A DNA stretch of 35,192 bases from a virus, in IMG/VR virus record IMGVR_UViG_3300045950_000162, positions 1 through 35,192 of that record. One strand, given 5' to 3'. Under the pieces are notes generated by a model, which was not told the origin of the DNA, ran no database searches, and was given only the letters and a program-made list of their open reading frames with translations. Below, piece by piece: positions 1-32,926 of the stretch (position 1 is its first letter; each line of letters starts with the position of its first letter). Made by a program: the position numbers and the translations under genes.

Positions 1-409
1 ACACGACACCCCATACTCTCTGGGCCCTCCGCAAAAAGTTCACCAGCCTTGCAGATCCGGCATGAGTGCCTTTCCCGACACGGCAGCCGTAAGAATCGAA
101 AATGAACCGTCTCTCAAAGAGAGGTTCAATAATAGAGTGGATTGCATGATGAACCACCCGGTCCCTGAACGGTAGCGCTGAAATCTCCCGTTTCTTTGGC
201 TCAAATACCAGAAATCTCCTATACCGGCCAGTCGTATAGGTGCCTGAGCTTATCTCTTTTTGAAGAGTCAATAACTCCTCCTCGATATTACGGGAGAATA
301 TAAGAACTTCTTTCCGGTAGCGCTTGCACCGTCGTGCCTTGAGATATGCGCCGTAGAGATTTTCAAAATCTACTATTTTTTCAAAGAGACTATTATATGT
401 TTTTGGCAT
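1..409 (-). CDS. DGR reverse transcriptase, N-terminal part (cut by window edge)
   Basis: Translation from the ATG at 409 gives 136 residues that run off base 1. They contain a basic N-terminus and then a segment typical of group-II-intron/DGR reverse transcriptases: FEPKKREISALPFRDRVVHH followed by a region with PLFERRFIFDSYGCRVGKG, i.e. RT motifs 0 to 2. The catalytic YxDD box and the DGR-type (I/V)GxxxSQ motif would lie in the missing part. In DGRs this enzyme copies the template-repeat RNA into adenine-mutated cDNA. Its place directly after a TR, an avd-like gene and a VR-bearing gene makes the assignment firm. The ribosome site before the ATG is weak, and the upstream small ORF ends only 14 bases away, so translation is probably coupled. 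Confidence 0.93.
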   Translation of the reverse strand, partial: MPKTYNSLFEKIVDFENLYGAYLKARRCKRYRKEVLIFSRNIEEELLTLQKEISSGTYTTGRYRRFLVFEPKKREISALPFRDRVVHHAIHSIIEPLFERRFIFDSYGCRVGKGTHAGSARLVNFLRRAQRVWGVV

Positions 410-423
410 TGCATCACCACTAA

Positions 424-609
424 TCACTTAAATTTCCTTTTCACAGATACATCTAAATCTGTGATACCTCCCTGACTCATATTCAGATCAAGGATGAGCC
501 TGCCAGTCAGGGTTTTCACATCCTGCGGGATAATCCCTTCCTTGCCCAACTCTTCCAGACATTTCACTAATATTCTTTTCCACTCTTTACCGTCTTTTTT
601 CTCGCCCAT
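424..609 (-). CDS. 61-residue unknown protein between TR and RT
   Basis: Small charged, mostly helical protein beginning MGEKKDGKEWKRILVKCLEE. The ATG at 609 has a strong ribosome-binding site (AGGAGG, 7 bases upstream), which supports a real gene. I do not recognise a family. It sits inside the DGR between the structured non-coding stretch and the reverse transcriptase and ends 14 bases before the RT start, so the two are probably translated together. It could be a small DGR accessory factor or an unrelated passenger; nothing in the sequence decides this. Confidence 0.7.
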   Translation of the reverse strand: MGEKKDGKEWKRILVKCLEELGKEGIIPQDVKTLTGRLILDLNMSQGGITDLDVSVKRKFK

Positions 610-928
610 CGGTCAGCCTCCTAAACAAAAAACCCGAAATCTTTAAACCGTAAAACGGTTTTTAATGGGCTTGGCAGCTCTCCCTGAGGAGTTACCAACT
701 AACCGACCGTTTTTACGATCTCGAGATTTCGGGTTTAATAGTTCTCTAAAGAGCTATTAAGCGACCGAGTTATGCGGCCTGTGCGATTTTATGGGGAACC
801 CGTACTCACCACACAAAGCCTCTGCAATTTTTGCCTCCGGGCATTAAGCCCTTCGACAGGGATTAGAGACCTGTCTGTGACACTGGAGGCGCTCAGTAGA
901 GACATCCTCTCTAAAAACATTACACAGG
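610..928 (-). other. Non-coding region downstream of TR
   Basis: No convincing gene in 319 bases. Read on the minus strand it continues from TR toward the RT and is rich in inverted repeats: GACAGG/CCTGTC near 855-875, an AATAG/CTATT hairpin at 737-758, and the long structure at 630-736. In the Bordetella phage BPP-1 DGR, sequence downstream of TR is part of the RNA needed for cDNA synthesis. The same role here is an inference. Confidence 0.55.
630..736 (-). ncRNA. Long structured RNA element between TR and orf61
   Basis: The outer arms are a perfect 13-bp inverted repeat (AAACCCGAAATCT at 736-724 and its complement at 642-630 on the minus strand). Inside is a second stem, CGTAAAAACGG against CCGTTTTACG, with one bulge. 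The top carries TTGG/CCAA and CTCC/GGAG pairings. The 3' outer arm runs into a T-rich tract, so it could act as a terminator or attenuator in front of orf61 and RT. It could instead be the structured part of the DGR template RNA. I do not recognise a known riboswitch class. Confidence 0.5.
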
Positions 929-1036
929 CACAGGCGGGCCGGAACCCCACATTGTTGTTCACGATTGAGCGTGCATTATTCAGATTAAGCGCGAACACAC
1001 CCGCATTGGATGTATTGTCCCAGTTGCCGCCGCGAA
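929..1036 (-). repeat. DGR template repeat (TR)
   Basis: This 108-bp stretch aligns without gaps to 1487-1594 at a constant offset of 558 bases. It differs at nine positions (plus-strand 952, 956, 959, 977, 979, 980, 985, 986, 1025). All nine are T on the plus strand, i.e. A in the minus-strand template; none of the 84 non-A template positions differs. Read in the VR frame, seven AAC/AAT codons lie at the residues that vary. It lies 6 bases after the avd stop, as TR does in BPP-1. The sequence happens to be open in one frame but is a template, not a gene. Confidence 0.96.
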
Positions 1037-1041
1037 CGTCC

Positions 1042-1373
1042 CTAACCCACATTTGAAACACTTTTAATCCACCCTCCCAACAGTCTTCCTATCTCAGCTA
1101 CAAGCTTTCCGCTGTGCTCGTAACTCTTATGAGATAGATATTTCCTATCATGAGCCAGCCTGAGCAAAAATTTCAGTTCTTCTATCCTTACATCAATGTC
1201 ATACAGGATTGGCTTTTTATTCCTGCTTTTATTGGCTCTAATAACCTCCCTTGCAATGTCCAGCACGCATGACTTAACATGCGTGCAGAGAATAAATTCG
1301 GAAACTTGTCCACAATAGGGAATAGATATAATGTAAAATCATAAATTTTCTGATATATGACCAGATTATCCAT
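1042..1373 (-). pseudogene. avd: DGR accessory variability determinant (Avd), frameshifted
   Basis: Avd is a small four-helix protein that binds the DGR reverse transcriptase and template RNA. The first frame (ATG at 1373) reads MDNLVIYQKIYDFTLYLFPI then VDKFP. The rest of the family pattern (SEFILCTHVK, a conserved helix, FLLRLAHDRKYLSHKSYEH, IGRLLGGWIKSV) continues in another frame to the stop at 1042. The switch falls near 1300, around the codons after DKFP. One indel explains it. It may be a true inactivating mutation, a sequencing error, or less likely a recoding site. A TATAAT string lies about 15 bases before the ATG, but no matching -35 box was found. Confidence 0.85.
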
Positions 1374-1419
1374 GCCGACATTATATTATATCTACCCCCT
1401 TCTTTAAAAATTTTCCCGC

Positions 1420-1443
1420 GGAGGCGGGCGTTAGCCCGCCTCC
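1420..1443. other. Perfect 10-bp hairpin downstream of VR
   Basis: GGAGGCGGGC and GCCCGCCTCC flank a four-base loop (GTTA on the plus strand), beginning 43 bases after the VR end. No T-run directly follows the stem on either strand, so a simple intrinsic terminator is less likely. In BPP-1 and other DGRs, a DNA hairpin or cruciform just downstream of VR helps target recognition during retrohoming. The position and shape fit that role. Confidence 0.6.
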
Positions 1444-1478
1444 AAAAAACAGATTAACAGATTTCAGAGAGCAGATGA

Positions 1479-2594
1479 TCATAAGACACAGGCGGGCCGG
1501 AACCCCACACTGTGGTACACGATTGAGCGTGCATAAGACAGAAAAAGCGCGAACACACCCGCATTGGATGTATTGTCCCAGTGGCCGCCGCGAAGGGGAA
1601 GCCGCTCGTTATAGTTCATTGCCCACATGCCATCATCGCCCAGTCCTGTAGTGGCAATCGGGAAAAGGGCGAGTGCTTTTAGTATTACAGGTGGTGTGAT
1701 TCCTGTGTCAGCAGCAAGACTCTGGAATGCGTTATACGTGTATCCATCGTCTCCGGATGCCGGGGCATTGGAATTGTCCCTTACATCATCAAGTTGTGCA
1801 GCGCCTACCTGACCTGTAGTTCCTACATTCACCGAATCATATTTGCACGTGCCTATTGTTCCGGGAGCAACAAGAGAGCCATTGCTTGCCAGTATCGCCT
1901 TCCAGAGGGTTGATGAGGCGCTCTGATCCTTTGTATTGTCTGCAGCGTTGTTGTTCTCAAGGATCTGGATCTCTCCATTATTGAGTCTCATACCTCCGAC
2001 CCATTCCCATACATTGCCGTTCAAATCCGCTATGCCGAAAAGGCTGTTATCGTGACACCAGCTTGCGGGTCCTGTGCCTGTGAGACTTCTTCCATCCGTG
2101 CCAGTCGTGGCTTTCACAGATCTCTCGTAGGCTGCGGAGTAGTCTTTAGGGTCTTTATATGTCGATCCATCCCATACGGCATTATTGTTGCCTCTCGGCA
2201 TAAAGCCGTTTTTCCAGCACCACAGGGCAATGGCTGCCCATTCTGCGTTGGTCATCAGATGCCAGCCGTCGCCTTTTGCCTTGCAGTAACCCAATGCCTG
2301 ATCGAAGGTGTAACTATTTGCGGGATCCTGCGCTGGCAGGCTCAATGCATTGCCATCGTGTACTATTGCCTGAAACTTTCCGATGAATATCTCGGACTTC
2401 TCCACTCCGTTCACGATGAAGGCCGGGTGGACGCCTGAGCCAAGAGAGGCATCGATATCCTGCAGATTGAACTTTGGTATCCTTACCATAATGCTCGGAT
2501 ATCCTTTACTGTCATAAAGCACTGTGTTTTTGCCACCGCTGGCAGCCTCGACCGACTGCCTTAATGCATCAGGGACTGATATTGTTATAGCCAT
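1479..2594 (-). CDS. DGR target: FGE/C-type-lectin-fold tail-tip protein
   Basis: This 371-residue protein has an N-terminal region (1-65) that I do not recognise. It is followed by a formylglycine-generating-enzyme/C-type-lectin-like fold with the family motif GIADLNGNVWEWVGG at 187-201. The last 38 residues are encoded by the VR. Residues that vary relative to TR are H338, F351, S353, Y354, Y360, H361 and S362, all on AAY template codons. BPP-1 Mtd uses the same fold and the same C-terminal diversification to switch host receptors. As the last gene of the fibre cluster, it is most likely the receptor-binding tip. The start has a strong AAGGAGGT site. Confidence 0.95.
   Translation of the reverse strand: MAITISVPDALRQSVEAASGGKNTVLYDSKGYPSIMVRIPKFNLQDIDASLGSGVHPAFIVNGVEKSEIFIGKFQAIVHDGNALSLPAQDPANSYTFDQALGYCKAKGDGWHLMTNAEWAAIALWCWKNGFMPRGNNNAVWDGSTYKDPKDYSAAYERSVKATTGTDGRSLTGTGPASWCHDNSLFGIADLNGNVWEWVGGMRLNNGEIQILENNNAADNTKDQSASSTLWKAILASNGSLVAPGTIGTCKYDSVNVGTTGQVGAAQLDDVRDNSNAPASGDDGYTYNAFQSLAADTGITPPVILKALALFPIATTGLGDDGMWAMNYNERLPLRGGHWDNTSNAGVFALFLSYARSIVYHSVGFRPACVL
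1487..1594 (-). repeat. DGR variable repeat (VR)
   Basis: It covers the 3' end of the target gene, up to 8 bases before its stop. It is identical to TR except at nine template-adenine positions. The 3' end is a GC-rich block with GGGGTTCCGGCCCGCC and no changes, which fits an initiation-of-mutagenic-homing segment. Beyond both ends the similarity to TR stops abruptly. Confidence 0.96.
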
Positions 2595-2595
2595 T

Positions 2596-2949
2596 TTACA
2601 TACCTCCTTCTATTTTTTCCGGGATTCCCCAGAGTTGTAATGCAACTGCGCCCACATCTACTGATACAGGCTCTTTCTGAGTGATGACAATGTCATTGCC
2701 CTGCATATCCTTGCTGTTAACCAGTGTTTCCTTATACCTTCTCGGCGGTATAAGTATATTTGCAGCATAGTGTCTGCCTGAATCCTCGCTCAACATGCCG
2801 GCATCAAAATAGACATCTATAGCAACCGCTACATCCTTCTGCCTCTGGTCGAGGTTTATCTCTATCTCATTATTGTCTCCAAGATAGAGGATATTGCCCT
2901 CAAGCCTATAAGCTATCTTTTTGCTCTCTGTCATTTCTTTAATCAGCAT
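2596..2949 (-). CDS. Unknown protein upstream of the DGR target
   Basis: A 117-residue protein with alternating beta-type and charged segments and no signal peptide or membrane span. It starts at ATG 2949 behind GGAGGGA and ends one base before the DGR-target gene, so the two are co-translated. The position between the fibre gene and the receptor-binding tip suggests a fibre adaptor or assembly chaperone. I see no motif that proves either. Confidence 0.75.
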   Translation of the reverse strand: MLIKEMTESKKIAYRLEGNILYLGDNNEIEINLDQRQKDVAVAIDVYFDAGMLSEDSGRHYAANILIPPRRYKETLVNSKDMQGNDIVITQKEPVSVDVGAVALQLWGIPEKIEGGM

Positions 2950-2963
2950 ATAATTGTCCCTCC

Positions 2964-3884
2964 TTATGTGTAGTTAATGTTTAGGAGCGTCCATCTCATC
3001 CTGATATTGTCTGCGCTCCCTGATATTTTGACCTTGAACCCGTTTGTCGCTTTGTCATAGACAGTCACAGCGCCTACTGCCGTTACATCCGTTGCAGACT
3101 CCACCTCTACATCCACCCCATAATCAGCGGACGGAAGGGTATACGGGAGTGCAACATACACATACGGCTCTGAATTGACTGTCCATCCGCTATCAGCCTG
3201 AATGACTCTATTATCTGTGAGCGTTACACTGTTCAGATTATTAGCAGAGTCATTCGCAGGGATGCTTAATGTGTATAGGAGCTGTCCGTCATAAGGAACT
3301 TCTTCCGCGATATCAACCCGATAAGAGCCGTTTGTCTGCTTTTTTAGATATGCATAATATGTTTTTGCAACCGACTCAGAGTTCGTCGGAACAGAGACAT
3401 GATAATCATCATCCGATAGGCTTATATTCTGACCGTTGATTTTTGCCTTGTTCGTTCCTGTCCCGACCGTCCCGGTTTGGCTCAAATGAAGCGCACGAAT
3501 GTCTGACTTTGTCAGTATAAATCCCTGTATCACATATTTGTTTTTTACATAGGCGACCCCTTGAGCAAAAACCCTCTTTCGGATGTTTTCAATCTCTTTT
3601 GATAGAACGCCTCCAAGCCCTAATGCAGACATTATCCCTGCAACTATATCGGACTGGTTGTCAGGGCTAAAGGCGTCATACTGAGAAACCCTCTCTCCGA
3701 TAGTTGTTTTTCCGCCCCTTGCAGCGATTACCTCGTCTGCAATAGCTTTCAGCCATTTCGTCCTATTCGCAAGCTGTTTCGCCTGCAAATTTGAAATGCC
3801 GTCAGTTCCTCCAACTACCGGATCGGTCGTTTCGATCTGGTATATCCCCGCCTCAAATGCTTGGCTTTCAGGTAAGTTTGCCAT
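2964..3884 (-). CDS. Tail fibre-like protein
   Basis: This 306-residue protein starts with a pattern common at the N-termini of phage tail fibres and collar proteins: ETTDPVVGGTDGISNLQAKQ followed by LANRTKWLK, which anchors the fibre to the baseplate. The middle and C-terminal parts are rich in Ser, Thr, Asn and short beta strands. There is no enzyme motif. It lies between the tail-protein-I region and the DGR target, which fits a short fibre carrying the variable tip. The ribosome site is AGGAGGAG. Confidence 0.82.
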   Translation of the reverse strand: MANLPESQAFEAGIYQIETTDPVVGGTDGISNLQAKQLANRTKWLKAIADEVIAARGGKTTIGERVSQYDAFSPDNQSDIVAGIMSALGLGGVLSKEIENIRKRVFAQGVAYVKNKYVIQGFILTKSDIRALHLSQTGTVGTGTNKAKINGQNISLSDDDYHVSVPTNSESVAKTYYAYLKKQTNGSYRVDIAEEVPYDGQLLYTLSIPANDSANNLNSVTLTDNRVIQADSGWTVNSEPYVYVALPYTLPSADYGVDVEVESATDVTAVGAVTVYDKATNGFKVKISGSADNIRMRWTLLNINYT

Positions 3885-3901
3885 TGTCTATCTCCTCCTT
3901 T

Positions 3902-4339
3902 TTAAAATATTATTGTCCACGAGCCATCGAGACTTATATCGCTTGCCTTTTCAATTTGCCCTCTGGTTTTTCTCGAGAAGATCGTATTGTCTGAACATAT
4001 AAGCCCAAACTCTCTGACACTCATTCCGTTTGCCTCTGTGGTACCGAGGCTCCATGTGAACTTGACATGCCCTGCCTGAGGGTATGTATGCCCTGAAAGA
4101 GGTTTCGTAAACGCGTCCGTCAGTGCCGTATCATCAGGCGTAGGGCCTGAGCCGTTTGTTCCAAAGCCTATTTTTGTGATGGTCTTCCCTGCCCCGTCGC
4201 CTCCAATAAGCCTCGCTAACGCATCTTTCGCTACATTCACGATCATGTTCTTGTCGCTGTATTCCTCAATAACCTGTCCATCGCGTAAAACCCTCAACTC
4301 GAATATGCCTTTTACTTTTTCCATATCTAAAATCTTCAT
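3902..4339 (-). CDS. Baseplate/fibre-associated structural protein
   Basis: A 145-residue protein. The N-terminus (IFELRVLRDGQVIEEYSDKN then MIVNVAKDALARLIGG) and the later KIGFGTNGSGPTPDDTALTD match a widespread phage structural protein found between tail protein I and the fibre genes. Its exact role is not established. The start overlaps the stop of the upstream gene by four bases (ATGA), which shows translational coupling. Similarity is recognised by pattern only. Confidence 0.75.
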   Translation of the reverse strand: MKILDMEKVKGIFELRVLRDGQVIEEYSDKNMIVNVAKDALARLIGGDGAGKTITKIGFGTNGSGPTPDDTALTDAFTKPLSGHTYPQAGHVKFTWSLGTTEANGMSVREFGLICSDNTIFSRKTRGQIEKASDISLDGSWTIIF

Positions 4340-5367
4340 ATGAGCGCCTCCTGCGTTTTAATATTGCCGCTATAATAAATACCTCCGAAGTATGACTTTG
4401 AGGAGTCATGCTTAAATGCGCCATTATAATAGATGCCTCCATAGTTGTATCTGCTGTCATGCCTGATGTGCTTAGTGATTGATAGCGGCATTGCAGCATC
4501 AACTGCGAATGGCGCATCAGAGCCATATGTAAAACCTGAATACTGAAATCTGCCGTCATAAAGTGGAGATGCCTTGACTTCATCGGATGCCACAGAGCCA
4601 ATATCAATTGCCGACATGATATCCCACTCATTGTCGTATAACTTGCCGTGCGCGAGCCATTCATTATAGAGTGCATGAGAGTTATGCCTTAATCTGCCGT
4701 CATAACAGCGCCTCTCTGCCTGATTATGCTGTATAGAGCCGTCGTATCTTATTCCCCATGGCTTTATATCTTCGTATGCTATAGAGATAAGAGATGAAAG
4801 CGAATCAATTAAGGCATCAAAATGATCTTCAACCGTGCATTTAAATACAATATCTCTAAGATGACTCCTCGCATTTTTGTATTCATTAACTAAGGCGACA
4901 AGTCCTTCAATATCTGTTTTTGTCAGACTTTTTGACTCGCCAATATCGAGGATTACCCTGAAGAGCGCCCACCTGACGCCGCCCATATAATCTTCAGACC
5001 CCGAGTATGTGTATGCGCCGTCATATTTCACTGTCGGCAGGCCTTCAATAATTTCAGCATCAGTATATCCAACTGATTTTATAGCCTGCTTAACCGCCCA
5101 CGGTGTGCCTTTGTACCGGTGAAGCTCAAAGGACTTTTTGATTAGGCTGCGTTTTTCTTCATCTGTCTGCGCGAGATCATAGCCTTCTACATGAAACTGC
5201 CATGCAAGATAAGGCAGCGCCTCGGCAGGCACATCATCAATAATATATACGAGAAGTTTATTGAGTTCATTCTCTATGGAGAATATCTTGTCTGCCGCAG
5301 CGCAAAGCCCCTCAAGGTTTTTATCGCCTTGCAGATTTGGAGACAATAATTCTTTCGTCTTAACCAT
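4336..5367 (-). CDS. Phage tail protein I (gpI) with repetitive C-terminus
   Basis: Baseplate wedge protein of the P2 gpI/Mu gp48 group. The N-terminal 100 residues carry the family pattern: EALPYLAWQFHVEGYDL, then SFELHRYKGTPWAVKQAIKS. From about residue 215 the protein changes to repeated YDG/YxYSG/GGIYYNG units, an unusual extension rich in Tyr, Gly and Asn and probably a beta-rich fibre-docking domain. The gene overlaps both neighbours by a few bases, as expected in a tightly coupled baseplate operon. Confidence 0.88.
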   Translation of the reverse strand: MVKTKELLSPNLQGDKNLEGLCAAADKIFSIENELNKLLVYIIDDVPAEALPYLAWQFHVEGYDLAQTDEEKRSLIKKSFELHRYKGTPWAVKQAIKSVGYTDAEIIEGLPTVKYDGAYTYSGSEDYMGGVRWALFRVILDIGESKSLTKTDIEGLVALVNEYKNARSHLRDIVFKCTVEDHFDALIDSLSSLISIAYEDIKPWGIRYDGSIQHNQAERRCYDGRLRHNSHALYNEWLAHGKLYDNEWDIMSAIDIGSVASDEVKASPLYDGRFQYSGFTYGSDAPFAVDAAMPLSITKHIRHDSRYNYGGIYYNGAFKHDSSKSYFGGIYYSGNIKTQEALI

Positions 5368-6487
5368 CTACGCTCCCTGCAATTGCTACGGTTATGCCTG
5401 TGCAAATTGCAACTTCATTTTGTGCAAGCTGAATATATGCAGGCTGCGCAACCACTGCCCTGTATACTCCGACTATTTTCTGAAGTATTCCCACTATCTG
5501 CTCAGGAACGATATCTACTCCGAGCCGCTCTTTTACAGAGTCAGCATAGCTCTGGAGGCTTTCTTTCGCCTTTGTAAGGATCACATCCGAAAGCATCGAG
5601 GATGAGCTATAGATATACAGTTGAACATCAATGCTGTAATTTACAATCACAGGAGCCTCGACGATTACGCTGTCGGTCAAGGGTCTGCGTTTTTCGTGAT
5701 TCAGCGTCTCCGAGACAAGCGCAAGCATATCGGCATCGGGGATGCCGCCGTTTTTCAGCAAAGGCGCAACTTTTACTTTTCCGGGTTCCGGACTCCAGAC
5801 AGCCGCATCAACAATATCCTGATGCGCTGTTTTCGTCCAGTATTCGTATGCTCCTTCCGGCCCTGCCGTGCTGAAAGACTCAGGAGCGATCTGTATCCGC
5901 ATCCGCAGATGATCATCGCTCTCGATGTCGGCGCCGCCGTATGTCAGAGTCGTATTTTCGACTTTCTGCACATATGGCAAAGGATCTATAAGCTGGTTAA
6001 TCTCTCCGGCGAGATAGCCGTTCCCTGTTTGGCCTGTCTCTGTGCATGATGCTCCTGCATCAATATATGCGCTGCCTGCGCCGGCATTAGCATCCTCTGA
6101 GGTTGCAAAAACGACTTTATTGTCCTTGCTCATTACCCTTGTGCCTGCCGGGATAAGCAGAGGCGCTGTTAATGCAGTCTCAAAAGTAAAGCGTAATGTC
6201 GTAATTGCCGCTGCCGCAGGAAGCCTCGTTACACCCGGAAATACGCCGAGGTGATCCAGCATCTCGCCCCGCGCATAAGCTAAAAGATTCTGCTTTGCAG
6301 TATCGTTTATAGCAATACGGATGAGGTTTTCACGATAGGCAAATGTGGCAATAATCAAGGATTCTACCTGGCCTTTCGATAAAGGAATTCCGACTATCTG
6401 CTCGTAAGATTTTACGAGCTCTGCATACTGCCGATTCCAATCAACAGTAACAAACTCAGGCTCAGGCAATGTCTTCAGGTCTATCAT
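5360..6487 (-). CDS. Baseplate J-like protein
   Basis: This 375-residue protein belongs to the P2 gpJ/Mu gp47/T4 gp6 family, which forms the baseplate periphery. Visible signals are the N-terminal YAYRENLIRIAINDTAKQNL pattern (as FAYRENL), GEMLDHLGVFPGVTRLPAA, the middle ETGQTGNGYLAGEINQLIDP segment and RMRIQIAPESFSTAGPEGAY. The only good purine-rich ribosome site (AGGAGGAG) is about 17 bases before the ATG, which is long. A copy of the putative late-promoter motif lies just upstream, in the end of the W gene. Confidence 0.93.
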   Translation of the reverse strand: MIDLKTLPEPEFVTVDWNRQYAELVKSYEQIVGIPLSKGQVESLIIATFAYRENLIRIAINDTAKQNLLAYARGEMLDHLGVFPGVTRLPAAAAITTLRFTFETALTAPLLIPAGTRVMSKDNKVVFATSEDANAGAGSAYIDAGASCTETGQTGNGYLAGEINQLIDPLPYVQKVENTTLTYGGADIESDDHLRMRIQIAPESFSTAGPEGAYEYWTKTAHQDIVDAAVWSPEPGKVKVAPLLKNGGIPDADMLALVSETLNHEKRRPLTDSVIVEAPVIVNYSIDVQLYIYSSSSMLSDVILTKAKESLQSYADSVKERLGVDIVPEQIVGILQKIVGVYRAVVAQPAYIQLAQNEVAICTGITVAIAGSVDG

Positions 6488-7571: not shown

Positions 7572-8626
7572 CCTTTAGGCCTCGACTGTCCTTGTTTTTT
7601 AGCCTTCATTTTATAAATCTCCTCATGCCTTTCAACGCTTCTGATCTTGCATGATGTTGTGTATCCGCTTCCTTTGCTCAACGAATGCACAGCCTCCTCG
7701 ATAAGATACTGCCCGTCAAGGCTTCCAAAGCCCTCGGCGATTACGGTTGCACCTGCTGCAAGATACGGCTCTCCCATCACTGTGATTTCCGATTCACACT
7801 CCCATTTATTCTTTTTCTTCAGTTCCGCCTTTGCCCTCTCAATGGCCTGCTGCTTGTTCTCGCACCTTTCGGAAATTTTCAGCACGCTTCCCGACGCAGC
7901 CTTTTTTGCTGTCTCTGTATGCTTGACCTCTTTCTTTGACGCTGGATCCCAGTATCTGACTTCGCACGCCTTATATATCTCGCAGGTCTTTGTTGAAAAT
8001 CTGTAAGAGATAACGTTATGCCTACCTCTGCGGATGATATACACCGGCTCTGACTCTTCCAGTTCATCAGGCTTCACACAGATAAGCCTTTCAGAGTCAA
8101 CCTTGACATTGTATCCATATTTCTCACAAATGCCCCTTACAAAACCAAGGTCGTTTTCGTCTTTCTGATCTATCCGTTTCAGCTTAATGTCTGGGTTTAT
8201 CTTGATCTGTGGCTTTAACTTATTGCGCCTTGCAATATCCAGGATAACCTTTGACAGATTCACATTCTCCCACGCATGAGTCCTTTTCTGCCTGTATGCC
8301 TCTGTGATATAAGTAGCAAGCCCCTTCACGGTGATTGCGTCAGGCGGTCCGCCGAACTCAATCTCATCTATCTGAAACGTCCCGGCATTAAGCCATCTTT
8401 CGGAGTCCTCTTTAATGCCTATTTTTACTTTTACTACATCACCTTTTGTCGGATACCATGAGGACTTCCATCTGTCATCTCTGTCTTCAAATGTCATCTG
8501 TATCTCATCGCTTTTGCCGTGCAAATGGTCTGTATAAGTCAGATTAGTCAGATACGGCGAGACATCCTTGCTCACATCCCTGCCTGCCCATGTAATGCTG
8601 TATAGCGGCTCTCTTATCTTTTCCAC
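7553..8626 (-). CDS. Baseplate hub protein D (gpD/gp44-like)
   Basis: A 357-residue protein of the P2 gpD/Mu gp44 hub family. It starts SITWAGRDVSKDVSPYLTNL, then has QMTFEDRDDRWKSSWYPTKG DVVKVKIG. The middle segment KLKRIDQKDENDLGFVRGIC EKYGY is typical of this fold. It joins the tail tube to the spike. The start codon is GTG at 8626, behind GGAGGAG with 8-base spacing and inside the end of gene X. Confidence 0.94.
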   Translation of the reverse strand: MEKIREPLYSITWAGRDVSKDVSPYLTNLTYTDHLHGKSDEIQMTFEDRDDRWKSSWYPTKGDVVKVKIGIKEDSERWLNAGTFQIDEIEFGGPPDAITVKGLATYITEAYRQKRTHAWENVNLSKVILDIARRNKLKPQIKINPDIKLKRIDQKDENDLGFVRGICEKYGYNVKVDSERLICVKPDELEESEPVYIIRRGRHNVISYRFSTKTCEIYKACEVRYWDPASKKEVKHTETAKKAASGSVLKISERCENKQQAIERAKAELKKKNKWECESEITVMGEPYLAAGATVIAEGFGSLDGQYLIEEAVHSLSKGSGYTTSCKIRSVERHEEIYKMKAKKQGQSRPKGWALQA

Positions 8627-18703: not shown

Positions 18704-19735
18704 TTAATAATTCACCGATAATTTTTTAGCAGCCTCTTTGATTTCGTCCTCGACGCCGTATTGCCTTGCCCGCTTTTTCATCTCAGGGGTCATGCGATAG
18801 AATGACTCTGTCTCAAGCGGATCTCCGCCGAAGCCCTTTTGCACCGGCTCGAACTTTTTCAATTCTTTTGACGGCGTAACCGGCAGATCCAATACCTTTG
18901 CCTCTGCAGCATCAATGCCGCGCACAGTTGACCGGCACGCGAAATGAAGCGGCGGCCAGTTTGAAGACCACCATGAGTCCTTTGCCGGTCTTCGCACTCC
19001 CGATCTCTGTCTGCATATCAGGGACTGACGGCTATCCACGATGCCTACGAACTCAAGCATCTTTGGAGGGTTCTGTCTGAACTGCATCAAACGACCGGCG
19101 TTATAGTTAGTCTGGATGTTTGTTCTAAAAACCGTCTCCCAGTACCACGGGTCAGACTTGTGAAACCCCGCTTTTTTGAGAATCTCGTCTTTTCCGGCTT
19201 CTTCCCAAAATTGAGCGAGTGTCTTCCCTTCGTCCTGCGCCCTGATAAGCTGCTGCCTTATCGCCTCGATAGCATCGTATTGCGCGAGCCTTGCCACGCT
19301 GAATGCCCTGAATCGAAGCTTTGATTCCAAATCTTTATAAGCCTTTTTTGATATAGGTATTCGGGCTTTCAGGAAGTTCATAACCTGTTCAAAAGGCACA
19401 GGCTCAGGAAAAGCATCAAGCTCTATATCCTCGCTGTTGTCTGATAATTCTATATCACTGCCTGCGTGATCCATGCCGAGCATGAATGAAAATATAAATG
19501 CGTCTCTCAGCTTCTCTGCCAGTTCCTTCGACGCCGGAACTTGTAAAGCATTATCCTGTAAAGGGGACTGTCCCGGAATTACGGACGCTGGAAGGCGTCG
19601 TAGATTCGGGACTGTCCCCGTGATAAAGGTATCAGCGAAAATGTCTGTGATGTCATTCAGGAGCTTGCCTGCGACCCTGTCGAGCTCTTCTGCCTTTGCT
19701 ATTTCCTGCCTTAGATAGTCCGGCGTGTCCGCAAA
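18704..19735 (-). CDS. MuF head morphogenesis domain, joined to portal by a frame change
   Basis: The frame is open from inside the portal end (T-run 19741-19733) to the stop at 18704. The MuF core is clear: DPWYWETVFRTNIQTNYNAG RLMQFR, VDSRQSLICRQRSG and LHFACRSTVRG. No ATG, GTG or TTG occurs before ATG 19483, and that ATG has no ribosome site. Yet the 84 codons before it look coding (FADTPDYLRQEIAKAEELDR, then ELAEKLRDAFIFSFMLGMD) and resemble the C-terminal helical domain of portals. Either ribosomes slip -1 on the T9 run to make a portal-MuF fusion, or a T is miscounted. One copy of the palindromic element is inserted in frame. Confidence 0.82.
   Translation of the reverse strand, partial: FADTPDYLRQEIAKAEELDRVAGKLLNDITDIFADTFITGTVPNLRRLPASVIPGQSPLQDNALQVPASKELAEKLRDAFIFSFMLGMDHAGSDIELSDNSEDIELDAFPEPVPFEQVMNFLKARIPISKKAYKDLESKLRFRAFSVARLAQYDAIEAIRQQLIRAQDEGKTLAQFWEEAGKDEILKKAGFHKSDPWYWETVFRTNIQTNYNAGRLMQFRQNPPKMLEFVGIVDSRQSLICRQRSGVRRPAKDSWWSSNWPPLHFACRSTVRGIDAAEAKVLDLPVTPSKELKKFEPVQKGFGGDPLETESFYRMTPEMKKRARQYGVEDEIKEAAKKLSVNY
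19563..19619. repeat. Palindromic element, copy 1 (57 bp)
   Basis: The ends are GGGGACTGTCCC and GGGACTGTCCCC, with an inner ACGC/GGCGT hairpin. It is inserted in the portal/MuF coding frame, adding 19 codons (read as TGTVPNLRRLPASVIPGQSP) without a stop. Confidence 0.92.
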
Positions 19736-20982
19736 AAAAAACCGTCGCTCAACTCTGCTGCGCTGCTATTTTGCGCTGCCGTTGAGCTTGCAGACTTCCT
19801 AAACTCCGGGCTGATGATGAATACATCCGCATCATTCGCCGGTTTCGGAATGTTGTATTTCGTGTAGAGCGCGCTCTGTGAGATAGGCACTCCCCTGTCA
19901 ATCGCATCCTTAACTATCTCCCAAGAGGCATAATCATCCGTATCAAACTCGAGGATCGGCTTGGGCGCATCTGGGCCGTAATTCAACTCGACGATCCACG
20001 CTATCAGAGTCTTATTGAGGGTATAAGCAAGCTGTTTTGCATCACCGGCAGCAAGAGTCTTTTCCATCTTCTCATGCACTTCTGCCTGTGAGCGTGTGCC
20101 GTATTGCCCTTCACCGCTTGCCAGCGACTGGCCCGTGATGGCATAAGAGATCTGCACATCGCAAGCCTCTATGAGCGTTTTGAACGACGATAGGTCTCCC
20201 TTAACCTCCAGCGTAGTTACTTCTTTGACATTTGCCAATGCCACAGCCGCATCGCTCTGGATGCCGGAGAGCATCTCTGCAAGCATCTTTGCGCGCTCTC
20301 TGGCCTTATCTTCATCATCCGTTTCAAAAAGAGCAAGCACAGTAGGAACTCCGAACTTTTCTGCGGCAGTAAGCCAAAACCTCCATCCTGCCTTTTTGAA
20401 CATCCACGGCCAGTAGCACTGCTTCAGAACCGCATTGCCGTAAGGATTCTCCGCGCCTGAGTTATGAGTGTGGACGATGTATTTATACGGCTCATCGAGC
20501 GGCGTCTTCTGTCCCTGATTCAATAACACCGGCGTTCCGTCAGGCTTGAACATAAAGCGTTCCGCCTTCCTGTTTTTAAGCGCGGCGGGCTTCCATTTGC
20601 CATCCTGCAATGACCATATGATCTCTGAGAGAGAAAAGCCGAAATCGAGAGCGGACAAGAGCTCCTTCATCTCCTGATAGAGGTTCATAGCTTTAATTGT
20701 CTTGCTTACGAAATCTGATATTTCCTGCGCTAAAGGAGTCTCGCCGCCCGGAACGAGATAATACGGATAATTCAGCACATCGGCTTTCCTGATATCCAAC
20801 AACGATGATATCCGGGCGTCGAGCTTCATCTTTTCATATATCTCAAGGTTCTGCCCCGTATCCTGAAGGAGCTCATCAGGATTCGGCATGAGTTCCGTGA
20901 ATGCGCCGAGTTTTGCCGCAAACGGACTGATTACCTCCGCTGCCAGAACATTCTTATCTGCTGTCTTTTTATCATCAGGCAT
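19711..20982 (-). CDS. Portal protein (Mu gp29/DUF935-like)
   Basis: A 423-residue protein of the Mu portal family: EIYEKMKLDARISSLLDIRK ADVL near the start, DFGFSLSEIIWSLQDGKWKP, GNAVLKQCYWPWMFKKAGWR FWLTAAEKFGVP and TGQSLASGEGQYGTRSQAEVH. It forms the DNA gate. I prefer ATG 20982 to ATG 20988 because GAGGAGGT is then well spaced. The frame stops at 19711, seven codons after a nine-T run, which truncates the usual helical C-terminus; that domain continues in the -1 frame. Confidence 0.93.
   Translation of the reverse strand: MPDDKKTADKNVLAAEVISPFAAKLGAFTELMPNPDELLQDTGQNLEIYEKMKLDARISSLLDIRKADVLNYPYYLVPGGETPLAQEISDFVSKTIKAMNLYQEMKELLSALDFGFSLSEIIWSLQDGKWKPAALKNRKAERFMFKPDGTPVLLNQGQKTPLDEPYKYIVHTHNSGAENPYGNAVLKQCYWPWMFKKAGWRFWLTAAEKFGVPTVLALFETDDEDKARERAKMLAEMLSGIQSDAAVALANVKEVTTLEVKGDLSSFKTLIEACDVQISYAITGQSLASGEGQYGTRSQAEVHEKMEKTLAAGDAKQLAYTLNKTLIAWIVELNYGPDAPKPILEFDTDDYASWEIVKDAIDRGVPISQSALYTKYNIPKPANDADVFIISPEFRKSASSTAAQNSSAAELSDGFFLRTRRTI
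19733..19741 (-). promoter_or_regulatory. Nine-T run: possible -1 slip site, portal to MuF
   Basis: In the portal frame the run reads GGT TTT TTT TTG, which contains T TTT TTT and T TTT TTG heptamers. A -1 slip yields TTT TTT TTT GCG and enters the MuF frame. Homopolymer miscounting is the alternative. Confidence 0.55.
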
Positions 20983-22501
20983 TGCCATACCTCCTCAAAA
21001 CAAGAGAGCTTTCCCGCTTTATGCCGAGCCCCTGCACATAAGGCTCAGGCTTTTTCTCTACAATCAACTCCGATACAGCCATCTCCAATGCATCCGGCAG
21101 GTCGTCATTACCTTTCGGGAATTCCTCCAGTTGTTCAATAAGCAGCTTCTGCCGGTCTTTCTGAAATACTATTATTCCGGCTTCAACCAGCGGCGACAGC
21201 TTACTGATCCGGAACTCTTTATTGCCGGTCTGTTTAATGCCTTTTACAGGCAGCACAAGCCCTTCGCGGGTGGCTTCACGCAAAAGCTGATTCTTGTATA
21301 TCTCCTGAAACGCCTGTATCTCAAAGACTATCTTCGATGGCTTCCATGCCCGATATTTGGCGATGATCCTGGCTATAAGCTTCATGTCCGATACTTTCTC
21401 GCCGTCCGCATCGAGCACATATATCTGGCCGTTTTCCGCCCTGCCCGCAACAACGATTGCGGAGTAGTCTCCGGTTGCCTTGCCTGTGGCAGGGTCCACA
21501 GCCATAATGATCTTGAGCTTAGTGTTTCTTATGTCCTGCGTCTCATACCCCTGAAACCATTCTTTTCTGAATTTACGCTCCTCATCAGGAAGCGGATCAT
21601 TCTCCCATTCGGTTGCGAATATATGAGAGCCTAAGTCTATTCTCTTTTTTTCGATGTCTTTAAGGCTCCAACGCTGCGGCCACAGCGGATTGCCTTCAGG
21701 CGTAATAGCAGAGAACCTGAGACCTACCCAGTTCTTTAACTTTGCACCGTCCTTGATCTCGCCGAGGAGGCGGCTCGGCAGATCGTCCGGGTGCATTATC
21801 GTATTGACTATGACGATCAAAGAGTCTTTCCCTAAGTTCATAATGACGCGCTTGAACCACTTGTAAAGGTTCTCTCTCGATGTCTTGCTGTTGACCTCTT
21901 TATCTTTCAAAAGGTCGTCGCAGATTATATGCGTGGGCCGCATAGTGCGGCTCGCCATGCCTCTGATAGCCTCTCCGGCGCCGACAGCTCCTACGGTATT
22001 GCCGTTTCTGAGAACGATCTTATTTTTCTTCCAGATGCGGCCCTTCATATCTCCGAAGTCTTCATATATGCGCTCATTGTTCTCTATCTCGTATTTGATG
22101 TAATCGAGAAAGTCGCAGGCCTTTTCTTTTGAGGCGCCCGCTATCACAGGGAAAACCTTTTGCTTTGTAAGGACAAGCCATAGAGGAAATGCCTTGCTCA
22201 TCCTCGTGGATTTGCCGTGATCCCTCGGCTCTATGTCGAGGATACCGCCGGGCTTCTTTACCGGTCTCAAATATCCGTGATGCTCTGTCTTAATAAACCG
22301 CTTCAATGATTTTATATGCGGCGGCGCAACGGCCTGCTTATTTACTATGTCAATAACTGATTTCTGATACTCGCCGAACGGCAGCGGAAAAGCGTCTTTG
22401 AGATAGTATGAACAAAAAAATGCAAAGTCAGCCTTAGCCCTCGAAAGCCGCTTTTCCTTTTCCCTGTCTATATCTCCGACCAGTTCCTTGAGTATGCTCA
22501 T
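20975..22501 (-). CDS. Terminase large subunit (Mu gp28-like)
   Basis: A 508-residue DNA-packaging motor. The ATPase domain has a Walker A variant PRDHGKS (92-98), Walker B THIICDDL (190-197) and coupling segment VIVNTIMHPDDLPSR. The nuclease domain has AVDPATGKATGDYSAIVV (334-351, D336) and a C-terminal GNDDLPDALEMAV. These define a headful-type terminase. The start overlaps the DUF3486 stop (ATGA) and the end overlaps the portal. Confidence 0.96.
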   Translation of the reverse strand: MSILKELVGDIDREKEKRLSRAKADFAFFCSYYLKDAFPLPFGEYQKSVIDIVNKQAVAPPHIKSLKRFIKTEHHGYLRPVKKPGGILDIEPRDHGKSTRMSKAFPLWLVLTKQKVFPVIAGASKEKACDFLDYIKYEIENNERIYEDFGDMKGRIWKKNKIVLRNGNTVGAVGAGEAIRGMASRTMRPTHIICDDLLKDKEVNSKTSRENLYKWFKRVIMNLGKDSLIVIVNTIMHPDDLPSRLLGEIKDGAKLKNWVGLRFSAITPEGNPLWPQRWSLKDIEKKRIDLGSHIFATEWENDPLPDEERKFRKEWFQGYETQDIRNTKLKIIMAVDPATGKATGDYSAIVVAGRAENGQIYVLDADGEKVSDMKLIARIIAKYRAWKPSKIVFEIQAFQEIYKNQLLREATREGLVLPVKGIKQTGNKEFRISKLSPLVEAGIIVFQKDRQKLLIEQLEEFPKGNDDLPDALEMAVSELIVEKKPEPYVQGLGIKRESSLVLRRYGNA

Positions 22502-28743: not shown

Positions 28744-29240
28744 TCCTCCGAGGGGACTGTCCCAGAATTACGGACTCCGAAGGAGTCATAGATTCGGGAC
28801 TGTCCCTGTCTCAGTATCGGGCGTTCACGCAGGTCTCTATTCAGCAGTGTGTAGAGCATCTCAAGCCCGCCTCTATGTTTCCGCTTTCTCTGCCCTGCCT
28901 TAGCGACATATCCGGCATTTTTATATCTCTTGATAATGTCGGTTACATACTCTGTTTCGACTTTTGCGAGCATTGCGATTTCATTTGCGCTAAAGACCGG
29001 CAGATACCGCATCGCCCTCCACACCCTATCGGACTTTGTTATTGTCTCTTTCCTGCCTACATATTCGTAAATCGTATCTGGAGACTCAAGCTTCCGTATC
29101 TCTCCTCTCTTCAGGAAGTCCTTCAGGGCATCGCGAATTGCAGCGTTGTCATAAGGCATGTCGGCTCTTAGTTCAGAAAGGCTGCATCTGCCTTTTTTCC
29201 GCAGATACTCTCTTATTGCCTGCGCTACCCCTTTGTTCAT
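28740..29240 (-). CDS. Winged-helix DNA-binding protein
   Basis: A 166-residue protein with two HTH-type regions: AIREYLRKKGRCSLSELRAD, then AAIRDALKDFLKRGEIRKLE, and later VFSANEIAMLAKVETEYVTD. ATG 29240 overlaps the B stop (ATGA). The C-terminal 18 residues (GQSRIYDSFGVRNSGTVPSE) come from palindromic element copy 4, which has replaced the original end. Probably a regulator of the middle operon. Confidence 0.78.
   Translation of the reverse strand: MNKGVAQAIREYLRKKGRCSLSELRADMPYDNAAIRDALKDFLKRGEIRKLESPDTIYEYVGRKETITKSDRVWRAMRYLPVFSANEIAMLAKVETEYVTDIIKRYKNAGYVAKAGQRKRKHRGGLEMLYTLLNRDLRERPILRQGQSRIYDSFGVRNSGTVPSEE
28752..28807. repeat. Palindromic element, copy 4 (56 bp)
   Basis: Flanks GGGGACTGTCCC and GGGACTGTCCCT, inner hairpin ACTCC/GGAGT. 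It forms the 3' end of the winged-helix gene. It lies only 50 bp from copy 3, across the overlapping stop/start. Confidence 0.9.
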
Positions 29241-30115
29241 AGCGCCTTTACCACATCCATCGTCAGTGTCTGCAGTTTGCTTGCGTTCATGACTCTTATG
29301 ATCGAAAGCGCATCCCGAACGACTATCCTGAAGTCGCCTTCCGAGCGTTTCCATAATGCCCTTGCGCACTCGGCGTCAAGCTCAAGCCTCACTGCCATGC
29401 GGTAAAAAGCCGAGACATCAGGCACTGTAACTTCATCGAAAATTACCGTCTGCCTGACTCTGCTTTTAAGCCGTCTCTCCTGACTTACAGTATTTGTAAG
29501 CGTTTCCTCGCCCACAAGGACTATCGGACATCTGCATTGCTCGTTGACGCCCCTGAGCATCTCTATGCTCTTCTTCGGCATTTTGTCTGCCTCGTCAATG
29601 ATCACGAGCCGCCTGCGAGATGCGGTCTCCTTGCCGATTATTTCAAGACACCCCTCAAATGTATGAGGCTTCAGACCTGAAAATTCGTATGCGATCTTCC
29701 TTGCCACGCTCGGCAATGTCATCCCGTCAATGTATATCGCATATACTGCGTTGGGATTATTGACCGCGTAATGCAGAGATGCCTTGGACTTGCCCCTGCC
29801 TGCCCTGCCGATAATGATGCCGAATGACGATGTGAGGTCTCCGGCAGGGTCTATCAGCTCATCGCACAGAGAGTTCAGCCGTTTAACATTTTCGGTCATG
29901 ATGAAAATATCGGGCCTAACTGTGAGCCTGCTGCCGTCTTGCATTTTGTAGCCGTGTTCTGCTAATTTTGAGATGATGTCCGCTTCGAGCTTGGCGGTAT
30001 CGCCGTTGTATTTGCCTCTGACCAAGAGGCTGATCGTGGACTCATCATAGCCTGTGAGTTTGGCGACTTTGGCGTTGATGAGTCCATTTTCATCCATCAG
30101 TTTTTTAAGCTTCAT
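29237..30115 (-). CDS. Mu B-like AAA+ ATPase, transposition target protein
   Basis: A 292-residue protein. Residues 1-60 form an HTH (MDENGLINAKVAKLTGYDES then TISLLVRGKYNG), as in MuB. The AAA+ core has Walker A GRAGRGKS (103-110), Walker B LVIIDEAD (170-177) and sensor IVLVGEE (198-204). MuB coats target DNA, activates transposase A and provides target immunity. The gene lies directly after A, as in Mu. Ribosome site GGAGGT. Confidence 0.95.
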   Translation of the reverse strand: MKLKKLMDENGLINAKVAKLTGYDESTISLLVRGKYNGDTAKLEADIISKLAEHGYKMQDGSRLTVRPDIFIMTENVKRLNSLCDELIDPAGDLTSSFGIIIGRAGRGKSKASLHYAVNNPNAVYAIYIDGMTLPSVARKIAYEFSGLKPHTFEGCLEIIGKETASRRRLVIIDEADKMPKKSIEMLRGVNEQCRCPIVLVGEETLTNTVSQERRLKSRVRQTVIFDEVTVPDVSAFYRMAVRLELDAECARALWKRSEGDFRIVVRDALSIIRVMNASKLQTLTMDVVKAL

Positions 30116-30177: not shown

Positions 30178-32601
30178 TCACCTCCTTTCATTCACTGCCT
30201 CTGTATCTAAGTGATAGAACTTCCTGAATTCTTCCCAGTGGATCCGCTCTGATTCTTCCATCTTTGCCTCATACGCGCCCATGAATTTAATGTCCTGCTC
30301 AGGCAGGGCATAGCCGTTAAGCTCAGCCTCTACACACCACTTGTAATAATCGTGCTCCGCTGTAAATACAGGCCTCTTGAGCATCATCGGCTTTGGCCTT
30401 ACCGGCTGCGACGATTCTGCTACGATCCTGTCAACGCTTTCCCTGTATTCCCGATCTGTCATCTTAGGCTCGGCCTTCTTAACCGCCTTTTTCAGATTCA
30501 GCGCAGCCTTTGTGTGAGCGCTGTATTCGATGATGCCGGGTATCGGTGCGGTGAGCTTTTTGTATTGCTCTTTGACCTTGGCTATCATCTCTCGCTTCCA
30601 TTGCATGAGCTCTGATGTGAGATTTTTATCTTTCATGGATGATTCAGGCACACGCCTGAGCTGCACGGCAGCGCCGTCAGGCCTGATTGCGATTACATTG
30701 TCTTCATATATGTCGAACCTAACCTCCACCCTCGTGCCGTCCTTTATATCCCATAGGCCGTGGTCGAGGCTTATGCCCTCGTAAAGCTCATTGTTGATAT
30801 GTATCCTGCCTCTGTTTACAGACCTCGTATCCCTTGCCATAAGCACAAAGTCAAGCTCTGATTCAACCATCATCCGAGGCGTGAAGCCTTCGTTTTTCAC
30901 TGCATAAAGGATTTCATCCATGGGCGATCTTTTCAACGCAGAGTGCCGCCTGTGAAGATACATGTCTATAGAATCAAAGACCTTGAGCGTGAATTCTTCG
31001 GGGGTGAGAAGCTTGTTTTCTTCTTTAAGCCTCTTTAGTCTTTTATCCGAGAGAGCCTTTTCTTCTGATGTGCCTTTCAATTCCCTGACAAGACCCGGAA
31101 CGCCGAGGTCTAAAAGGATGCGCTCGATGGTCTGGAAGAACCTTTCTATGAGCTTTGCCTTTGCGTTGTAAGGTCTCGCATGCCTGTGCCATGCCTGCGA
31201 AGTGGAGACAACATCAATAACCTCGCATTCCTCGTTTCCTTCGATTGCATATCCGTCATTTGTCTTGTAAAGCTCTGAAATATCCAGTTCCTGCATGCCG
31301 TATGCGCGGAGATCATTGAGTATGGAGTTTGTATATTTCGATGTCTCAGGCTTGCCGTTATCGGTATAGGCGGTCTGAAATTTGCCCCAGTGCTTTATGC
31401 CCATTCGCATGGCAAGCCCTATCATGTAAGAGTTGTAGCGATCAGCTATGCTGATGCCGTAAGGAGCGCGTGTGCGGAGGTCAAGCCAGAAATAGCCTTC
31501 CATCCTGAGAACCCTGTCAAGCTCCCTGTCATGCACCCAGAAATCAAACCTGTGCTGGTCGCCAACAATGCACTCAAAAGGCTCAAGGTCTTTATATTGA
31601 CGAAGGATGTAAAAGACATTATCCAATGCACGGTTGCCGCCCCGTGCGTATTTTTCAAGGAGGGCATTAAGTTTGCCTAAATGCTCGTAGGCAGAGCTTG
31701 ACGAGCCGACCCTCCAGCCCGTCTCTTTAGCCTTTGCAATTACAGCTTGATATGCAAAGACCTTTGACGCATCTCCGCCCTCGCGGATTGCCTTAATATA
31801 AATGCCTGACATGTATTCCAGCGCCTCGGGATCCCATGCCGTGGGACCCTTTTTCTCTCTCGGTTTTACAAGAGCCTCTATGCCGCCTTCCTTGTATATC
31901 TTGATGTCCCGATAAAGCGATTGCTTTGTAAGGCCTGCATCCTCCGCAACCTTTTCAACCCACCTACTCTTTTTCCATCCTGCCGGGACAAAGAGCGCCT
32001 TTTGGACAAGCTCTATCTTTGTAGAAAGCCGTTCCTTTGCTGGTTCGTTTAAAAGGATTTCCTTGCTCACCGCTACTACAGGCGCAGTCAGCTTTGTTAT
32101 CTCCCACTGCGCCTGCGGAGCGAGCTTATCCTTTATATGCCCGGCCATGTCCCTCGCCGCATCTGGGTTTGTTTGAATCCATTTGACCTGAGCAGCAGGG
32201 GGAATTGATGGGTCGGTAATATGAATAAGCGGCCTTTTGCCACCTGCGCCTCCGCGAGATTCGACGTATTTTATGACCGTAAACTTACCCCGTTGAACAT
32301 CCTTTGTACATGCGCTGTAGCTCTTTCCGGTAAGAGTCGAAAGCCCATCTAAATCCAGCCATTCGGGGCCGATTTCTTGTCCACCAATCGCCAGTTTTTC
32401 GGCGTTTTGACCGGAAAAATTGTCCACCAATCCCGTCTTTTGTCCAGCAATCTGTCCATCAATAGCCGATGATTGGTGGACAAGGCAGCAACCTTCCGTC
32501 AAATCCATCTCACCGTTTTGACTGTTCTGTGCTATAATTTCCCCATGCCCGGCGTCTTCAGTCATAGAGAAATCTTTTTGAACTGGCTCTATCTCTGTCA
32601 T
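30178..32601 (-). CDS. Mu A-like DDE transposase
   Basis: An 807-residue transposase from ATG 32601 (AGGAG upstream). Residues 80-145 are a MuA-type N-terminal DNA-binding domain (WLDLDGLSTLTGKSYSACTK), and 195-250 a second HTH region. The catalytic core has D348 (CIVGDQHRFDFW), D414 (AYTDNGKPETSK) and E486 (PYNAKAKLIERFF), the DDE triad. A C-terminal region for MuB contact follows. Residues 1-75 are Gln/Asp/Gly-rich and probably unstructured. It performs integration and replicative transposition. Confidence 0.96.
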   Translation of the reverse strand: MTEIEPVQKDFSMTEDAGHGEIIAQNSQNGEMDLTEGCCLVHQSSAIDGQIAGQKTGLVDNFSGQNAEKLAIGGQEIGPEWLDLDGLSTLTGKSYSACTKDVQRGKFTVIKYVESRGGAGGKRPLIHITDPSIPPAAQVKWIQTNPDAARDMAGHIKDKLAPQAQWEITKLTAPVVAVSKEILLNEPAKERLSTKIELVQKALFVPAGWKKSRWVEKVAEDAGLTKQSLYRDIKIYKEGGIEALVKPREKKGPTAWDPEALEYMSGIYIKAIREGGDASKVFAYQAVIAKAKETGWRVGSSSSAYEHLGKLNALLEKYARGGNRALDNVFYILRQYKDLEPFECIVGDQHRFDFWVHDRELDRVLRMEGYFWLDLRTRAPYGISIADRYNSYMIGLAMRMGIKHWGKFQTAYTDNGKPETSKYTNSILNDLRAYGMQELDISELYKTNDGYAIEGNEECEVIDVVSTSQAWHRHARPYNAKAKLIERFFQTIERILLDLGVPGLVRELKGTSEEKALSDKRLKRLKEENKLLTPEEFTLKVFDSIDMYLHRRHSALKRSPMDEILYAVKNEGFTPRMMVESELDFVLMARDTRSVNRGRIHINNELYEGISLDHGLWDIKDGTRVEVRFDIYEDNVIAIRPDGAAVQLRRVPESSMKDKNLTSELMQWKREMIAKVKEQYKKLTAPIPGIIEYSAHTKAALNLKKAVKKAEPKMTDREYRESVDRIVAESSQPVRPKPMMLKRPVFTAEHDYYKWCVEAELNGYALPEQDIKFMGAYEAKMEESERIHWEEFRKFYHLDTEAVNERR

Positions 32602-32635
32602 GATCTCCTCTTTCCGCCTCATTTCTATGAAAAAT

Positions 32636-32926
32636 TCACTCCTTTCCATAAGATGACGCTTCTGGATAAACATCTGCTGAGGCTCCTTGAGACACACAAG
32701 GCTGATCTTCGGCATTTGATATTGAATATTTTTGATTGTAAAGCTCCTGAATGCGTCGAGAAACTCTTAAAACAAACTCCTCCTGAGTTAATATTTCTGT
32801 ATTCCAGCCGTATCGAATGCGTAACCACAGCTTTAAAAGAAGAAGCCGAATCCGAGAAAGGACTTTTGACCCTCCTTGTCCCCGATTTAAAAACCTTTTA
32901 CCTTCAACTACTTTTAACTTTTCCAT
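32636..32926 (-). CDS. Unknown small basic early protein
   Basis: A 96-residue protein starting MEKLKVVEGKRFLNRGQGGS; basic and Leu-rich in its first half (LSRIRLLLLKLWLRIR), polar at the end. I accept it because AGGAG precedes ATG 32926 by 8 bases and it fills the gap between two early genes with a 4-base spacing. An antisense ORF on the plus strand (32473-32928) lacks such a site. Function unknown. Confidence 0.62.
   Translation of the reverse strand: MEKLKVVEGKRFLNRGQGGSKVLSRIRLLLLKLWLRIRYGWNTEILTQEEFVLRVSRRIQELYNQKYSISNAEDQPCVSQGASADVYPEASSYGKE

Follow-up and report, generated by a model that had tools for sequence, protein, structure and literature searches.

The window analysed here, a viral DNA stretch of 35,192 nucleotides (IMG/VR record IMGVR_UViG_3300045950_000162), contains two repeats near one end. 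They raise the question of whether a diversity-generating retroelement (DGR) has rewritten a tail protein gene of a transposable phage, and whether this copy can still do so. The repeats, delimited by an ungapped alignment, lie at the following positions.

929–1036, minus strand: template repeat (TR)
1487–1594, minus strand: variable repeat (VR)

The TR and VR align over 108 bp with no gaps, and their similarity ends at these limits. All nine mismatches are at T on the plus strand, corresponding to A on the coding strand. A occupies 24 of the 108 template positions, and the hypergeometric probability that all nine mismatches fall at A is 3.3e-7. The preliminary description of this DNA, which reported a gapless 108-bp pair with nine differences at template A, was exact to the base. 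Its seven amino-acid changes, all at AAY codons of the TR, were likewise confirmed codon by codon (N338H, N351F, N353S, N354Y, N360Y, N361H, and N362S). Asn341 and Asn344 also correspond to AAY codons and are unchanged in the VR.

The same pattern was found in related cassettes. The sister contig L001 has its own 108-bp TR/VR pair, with all nine differences at A, and the adenine counts are 11 of 11 in L055 and 12 of 12 in L083. Rescoring of 102 distinct relatives placed 1285 of 1429 TR/VR mismatches at A, which makes up 22% of the template; this rescoring used no template-base weighting, but the pairs had first been picked by an A-weighted score and are therefore not fully independent. An ordinary duplication, with differences produced by normal mutation and selection, would be compatible with the short open frame in which the TR sits in the same register (ORF 789–1061). 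This explanation has almost no probability, given that all of the differences are confined to fewer than a quarter of the positions, that the pattern recurs in L001, L055, and L083, and that RT and Avd genes adjoin the repeats. Chance or ordinary duplication as the origin of the TR/VR pair is ruled out by the adenine pattern. The element is a genuine DGR, and the confirmed adenine-only pattern supports the past adenine-specific mutagenic retrohoming that had been proposed for it.

The sister contig also gives a relative date. Between the window and L001, there are 7 differing sites in the TR and 22 in the VR, 17 of the latter at template adenines. These differences indicate that the VR has been rewritten since the two phages split, in one lineage at minimum and most probably in both.

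The reverse transcriptase (RT) gene runs off the contig.

2–412, minus strand: DGR reverse transcriptase, N-terminal 137 codons (phrog_1423 RT, E 4.4e-54)

The identity of this fragment is settled by the PHROG match. The Pfam RVT_1 model gave no match at E ≤ 0.001 in the window and a weak match at E 0.038, because the gene is cut by the contig end. The fragment is 95% identical to the RT of L001, which is complete and matches the RT of the solved RT-Avd complex 8ub7 (E 8e-71). Of the expectation that the RT carries a YxDD motif, the part concerning the family stood, since the complete L001 enzyme has YMDD; the window RT lacks the C-terminal half and ends before the motif. The synonymous divergence (dS) between the window and L001 is 0.16 for the RT fragment, 0.85 for avd, 0.60 for the target, and 3.0 (saturated) for a 61-aa ORF between TR and RT. 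The low value of the RT fragment relative to its neighbours suggests recombination near the RT start.

The VR forms the end of the target gene.

1479–2594, minus strand: target (variable) protein of 371 aa, FGE-type C-type-lectin fold, TaqVP family, VR at the C-terminus (PF03781, E 1.4e-6)

Its best solved homologue is TaqVP (PDB 5vf4, E 4.7e-98). The AF2 model (pLDDT 93) has a C-type-lectin fold with the VR at the C-terminus, and its best PDB match is again 5vf4 (TM 0.92, 46% identity in the structural alignment), followed weakly by Treponema TvpA and Bordetella Mtd. TaqVP is the protein varied by the DGR of a Thermus aquaticus prophage, and its nine solvent-exposed variable residues lie in the same C-terminal region (PMC6328139). 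The match to TaqVP by both sequence and fold therefore indicates that the VR forms the known variable face. The target was probably varied to change host attachment; homology and gene position point to a receptor-binding role. ORF53 of YPCBV-1, which was described in print as a non-heme iron enzyme with an auxiliary metabolic role (PMC9769972), is probably also a DGR target of this kind; what resembles SUMF1 in it is the variable-protein fold.

The remainder of the window identifies the phage.

2596–6487, minus strand: baseplate J, tail protein I, and tail-fibre genes leading to the DGR target (PF04865, PF09684; phrog_6, 48, 3100)
19711–20988, minus strand: Mu-type portal protein (PF06074 Portal_Mu, E 1.2e-88)
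29237–30115, minus strand: MuB-like AAA ATPase, transposition (AAA_22 and TniB matches)
30178–32715, minus strand: Mu-type transposase A (PF09299, E 2.2e-5; phrog_310 transposase, E 2.4e-58)

Mu-type head and contractile tail genes (Portal_Mu, sheath, and baseplate J) are present. Together with transposase A, the MuB-like ATPase, and the tail genes, they assign the window by gene content to a contractile Mu-like transposable phage, in agreement with the preliminary description. The order of baseplate J and tail genes also bears out the claim that the target is the last gene of the tail cluster. The term prophage is not supported by the window itself, which has a repressor-like HTH gene at one end and the RT at the other and contains no DNA of a host. 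A host-type gene flanks L001 only, the contig with a transposase 94% identical to that of the window; past its RT lies a D12 adenine methylase, followed by a nucleotidyltransferase gene that resembles host DNA and adjoins the one junction seen in L001. A Mu-type transposase scored above the cut-off in 12 of 50 related contigs sampled.

The preliminary description implied that a DGR in a transposable phage was new. Several have already been published, and this type of system is not new; the window adds one more transposable phage with a DGR directed at a tail protein, and its target belongs to a family whose structure is known. Mushu (PMC5883640), YPCBV-1 (PMC9769972), BalMu-1, and the Mu-like Firmicutes phages of Toussaint 2013, as cited in PMC5883640 (reference 30), are transposable phages with DGRs, but they have other hosts and more distant cassettes. 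The Bacteroides hankyphage is Mu-like and transposable and carries a DGR acting on its tail fibre (PMC6199706), with demonstrated activity (PMC12135933); it differs from the window phage in host and phage lineage. The Thermus aquaticus prophage DGR (TaqVP, PDB 5VF4) shares the order target, avd, TR, and RT (PMC6328139), and genes of that prophage are annotated as Mu-like (PMC4605624); its variable residues are others, and its avd is intact as published. Pseudomonas phage Bise (OR683401) is likewise contractile with Ner/repressor genes and has the same gene order (baseplate J, tail genes, target, four-helix-bundle Avd, RT, and adenine methylase). The Bise target is 56% identical to that of the window; however, its RT is only 41% identical and its host is different. 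Bordetella phage BPP-1 is not known to be Mu-like. Its DGR has the same parts and mechanism, with an RT identity of 41% and matches of the RT to 8ub7 and of Avd to 4dwl, whereas the fold of its target, Mtd, has only a distant similarity to that of the window target.

The preliminary description overlooked three features: a frameshift in the accessory gene, a hairpin after the VR, and an insert between TR and RT. Whether the copy can still act depends on that accessory gene, avd, which lies between the VR and TR.

1042–1373, minus strand: avd, split by a frameshift into an N-part (ORF 1188–1373) and a C-part (ORF 1042–1266) (bAvd PF22296, E 1.6e-19 and 0.018)

Alignment with L001, L055, and L083 revealed a 10-nt deletion around position 1297; the reading frame is lost some 25 codons into the gene, which is intact in the sister L001. 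An avd match between the VR and TR was obtained in 102 DGRs, of which 101 have a full-length gene; the window has the sole split copy. In the reconstituted BPP-1 DGR, inactivation of Avd abolished activity (PMC12875486); the DGR as assembled should therefore be dead. With a dN/dS of 0.04, the downstream part of avd is still strongly constrained; the deletion must therefore have arisen recently or be an assembly error. In the latter case, the DGR would be fully active and the frameshift would be an assembly or sequencing error in the metagenomic contig. We give this reading slightly less than an even chance. It accords with the purifying selection on the C-part, the intact state of the adjacent target, tail, and small ORF genes, the full-length avd in all 101 other cassettes, and the fact that the split gene is known from one contig only. 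On the other hand, a clean 10-nt deletion next to GAAA repeats is atypical of short-read error, and exact-sequence scans of IMG/VR found neither a second copy of this phage nor a version with intact avd. The window copy is thus probably unable to retrohome now, unless the deletion is an assembly error. The claim that the phage now diversifies its host-binding tip is not supported by this contig, in which avd is frameshifted and the RT gene is incomplete at the contig border. The split avd bears on present activity, not on kinship with DGRs. If real, the broken gene offers a natural case for asking whether transposable phages freeze or lose diversification.

We consider it very probable that the element is a classical phage DGR at the right end of a Mu-like phage, in which adenine-error cDNA rewrote the VR of a TaqVP-like tail protein after the split from L001, the avd-deleted copy being probably inactive unless the deletion is an assembly error. 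The sequence anatomy, the adenine-only pattern, the protein families, the fold, and the VR divergence between the sisters are direct observations. The cassette runs in the order target with VR, hairpin, avd, TR, 3′ spacer (Sp), and RT. In the proposed mechanism, reverse transcription of TR-RNA would have introduced errors at adenines, and the resulting cDNA would have replaced the VR at the 3′ end of the gene for the C-type-lectin tail protein. Seven surface positions would thereby have been varied, probably altering host attachment. The replacement would postdate the split from L001. With the 10-nt avd deletion, if it is real, retrohoming would probably have been lost.

A hairpin follows the VR at the position expected for a DGR target site.

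1420–1443, minus strand: probable DGR target-site hairpin/cruciform, a GC-rich 10-bp inverted repeat with a 4-nt loop, TAAC, 43 nt after the VR

Its DNA fold has a z-score of −4.0. In BPP-1, a hairpin after the VR, with loop consensus GRNA, is needed for efficient homing, which was almost eliminated when GAAA was replaced by CTTT or the loop was made larger (PMC3240598). Among the relatives, 32 of 46 hairpins with a stem of at least 7 at the equivalent site have a GRNA loop, in contrast to TAAC in the window and TAAT in L001. Since the VR appears to have been rewritten after the phages with TAAC and TAAT loops diverged, the requirement on the loop may be less strict than it is in BPP-1, as judged from these two related sequences.

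The stretch between TR and RT contains the only part of the element with a claim to novelty.

780–928, minus strand: core of the TR-RNA 3′ spacer (Sp), common to L002, which lacks the insert (alignments)
630–736, minus strand: long branched RNA hairpin with a 13-bp closing stem (630–642/724–736), then a T-run; part of a clade-specific insert
424–609, minus strand: conserved 61-aa ORF with a ribosome-binding-site-like AGGAGG, of no known family (alignment)

The spacer of BPP-1 folds and recruits RT and Avd (PMC12875486). An nhmmer search matched L002 to the first ~149 spacer positions (E 1e-25). The TR–RT distance is 78–256 bases (median 152) in 42 other DGRs, compared with 516 in the window and 509–558 in L001, L055, L056, and L083. 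The window and these four relatives have about 350 extra bases, which comprise the T-tailed hairpin and the 61-aa ORF. The ORF has a dN/dS of 0.04 against L001. It had no match in Pfam, PHROG, or NCBIfam and was not found in phage or plasmid records, including Bise; among other IMG/VR contigs, it was found only in L001, and of 396 genomes searched in the L055 host phylum, 395 lack it and only that of L055 itself carries it. The AF2 model of the protein is unreliable (pLDDT 62). Rfam searches gave no match for the insert RNA of the window, where the one sub-threshold snoRNA match lies elsewhere, and nothing in four relatives. RNAalifold found no favourable covariation term for the hairpin in the five sequences. 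Pair counts for helix 1 showed two compensated pairs, with 98.5% of cells paired, and the whole structure outscored slid versions and shuffles on some measures only. These results are suggestive of a real RNA structure.

In the window and L001, the insert accompanies a target of the TaqVP type; in L055, a phage that has a lambda-J-like tail protein, it accompanies a target with an Mtd second domain. Related cassettes thus serve different targets and phage types, and the insert travels with the cassette, not the phage. At 7865–8947 of L055, the cassette of a Nitrospirae MAG diversifies the Mtd-second-domain target beside the lambda-J-like tail protein.

Two explanations of the insert can be weighed. 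The hairpin and the ORF may be unrelated to the DGR, that is, a terminator and a phage cargo gene inserted by chance. We judge this somewhat favoured, given the T-run that ends the hairpin and the 42 other DGRs, with TR–RT distances of at most 256 bases, that manage without the insert. However, its position is constant in five cassettes with different phage types and target families, and the ORF is strongly constrained. A less likely proposal, to which we attach perhaps a modest chance, is that the 61-aa protein and the T-tailed hairpin form an unrecognised DGR module, with the hairpin as an attenuator ending TR-RNA before the RT message and the protein as a small accessory acting with the RT or RNA, and that the TAAY loop is a working alternative to GRNA. 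The insert and the off-rule loop are small, concrete leads on undescribed DGR parts.

Four cassettes, which belong to different phages, have a D12-type adenine DNA methylase gene after the DGR RT: L001 (7171–7938), L055 (11044–11853), L056 (11039–11818), and Bise (OR683401, 37001–37825).
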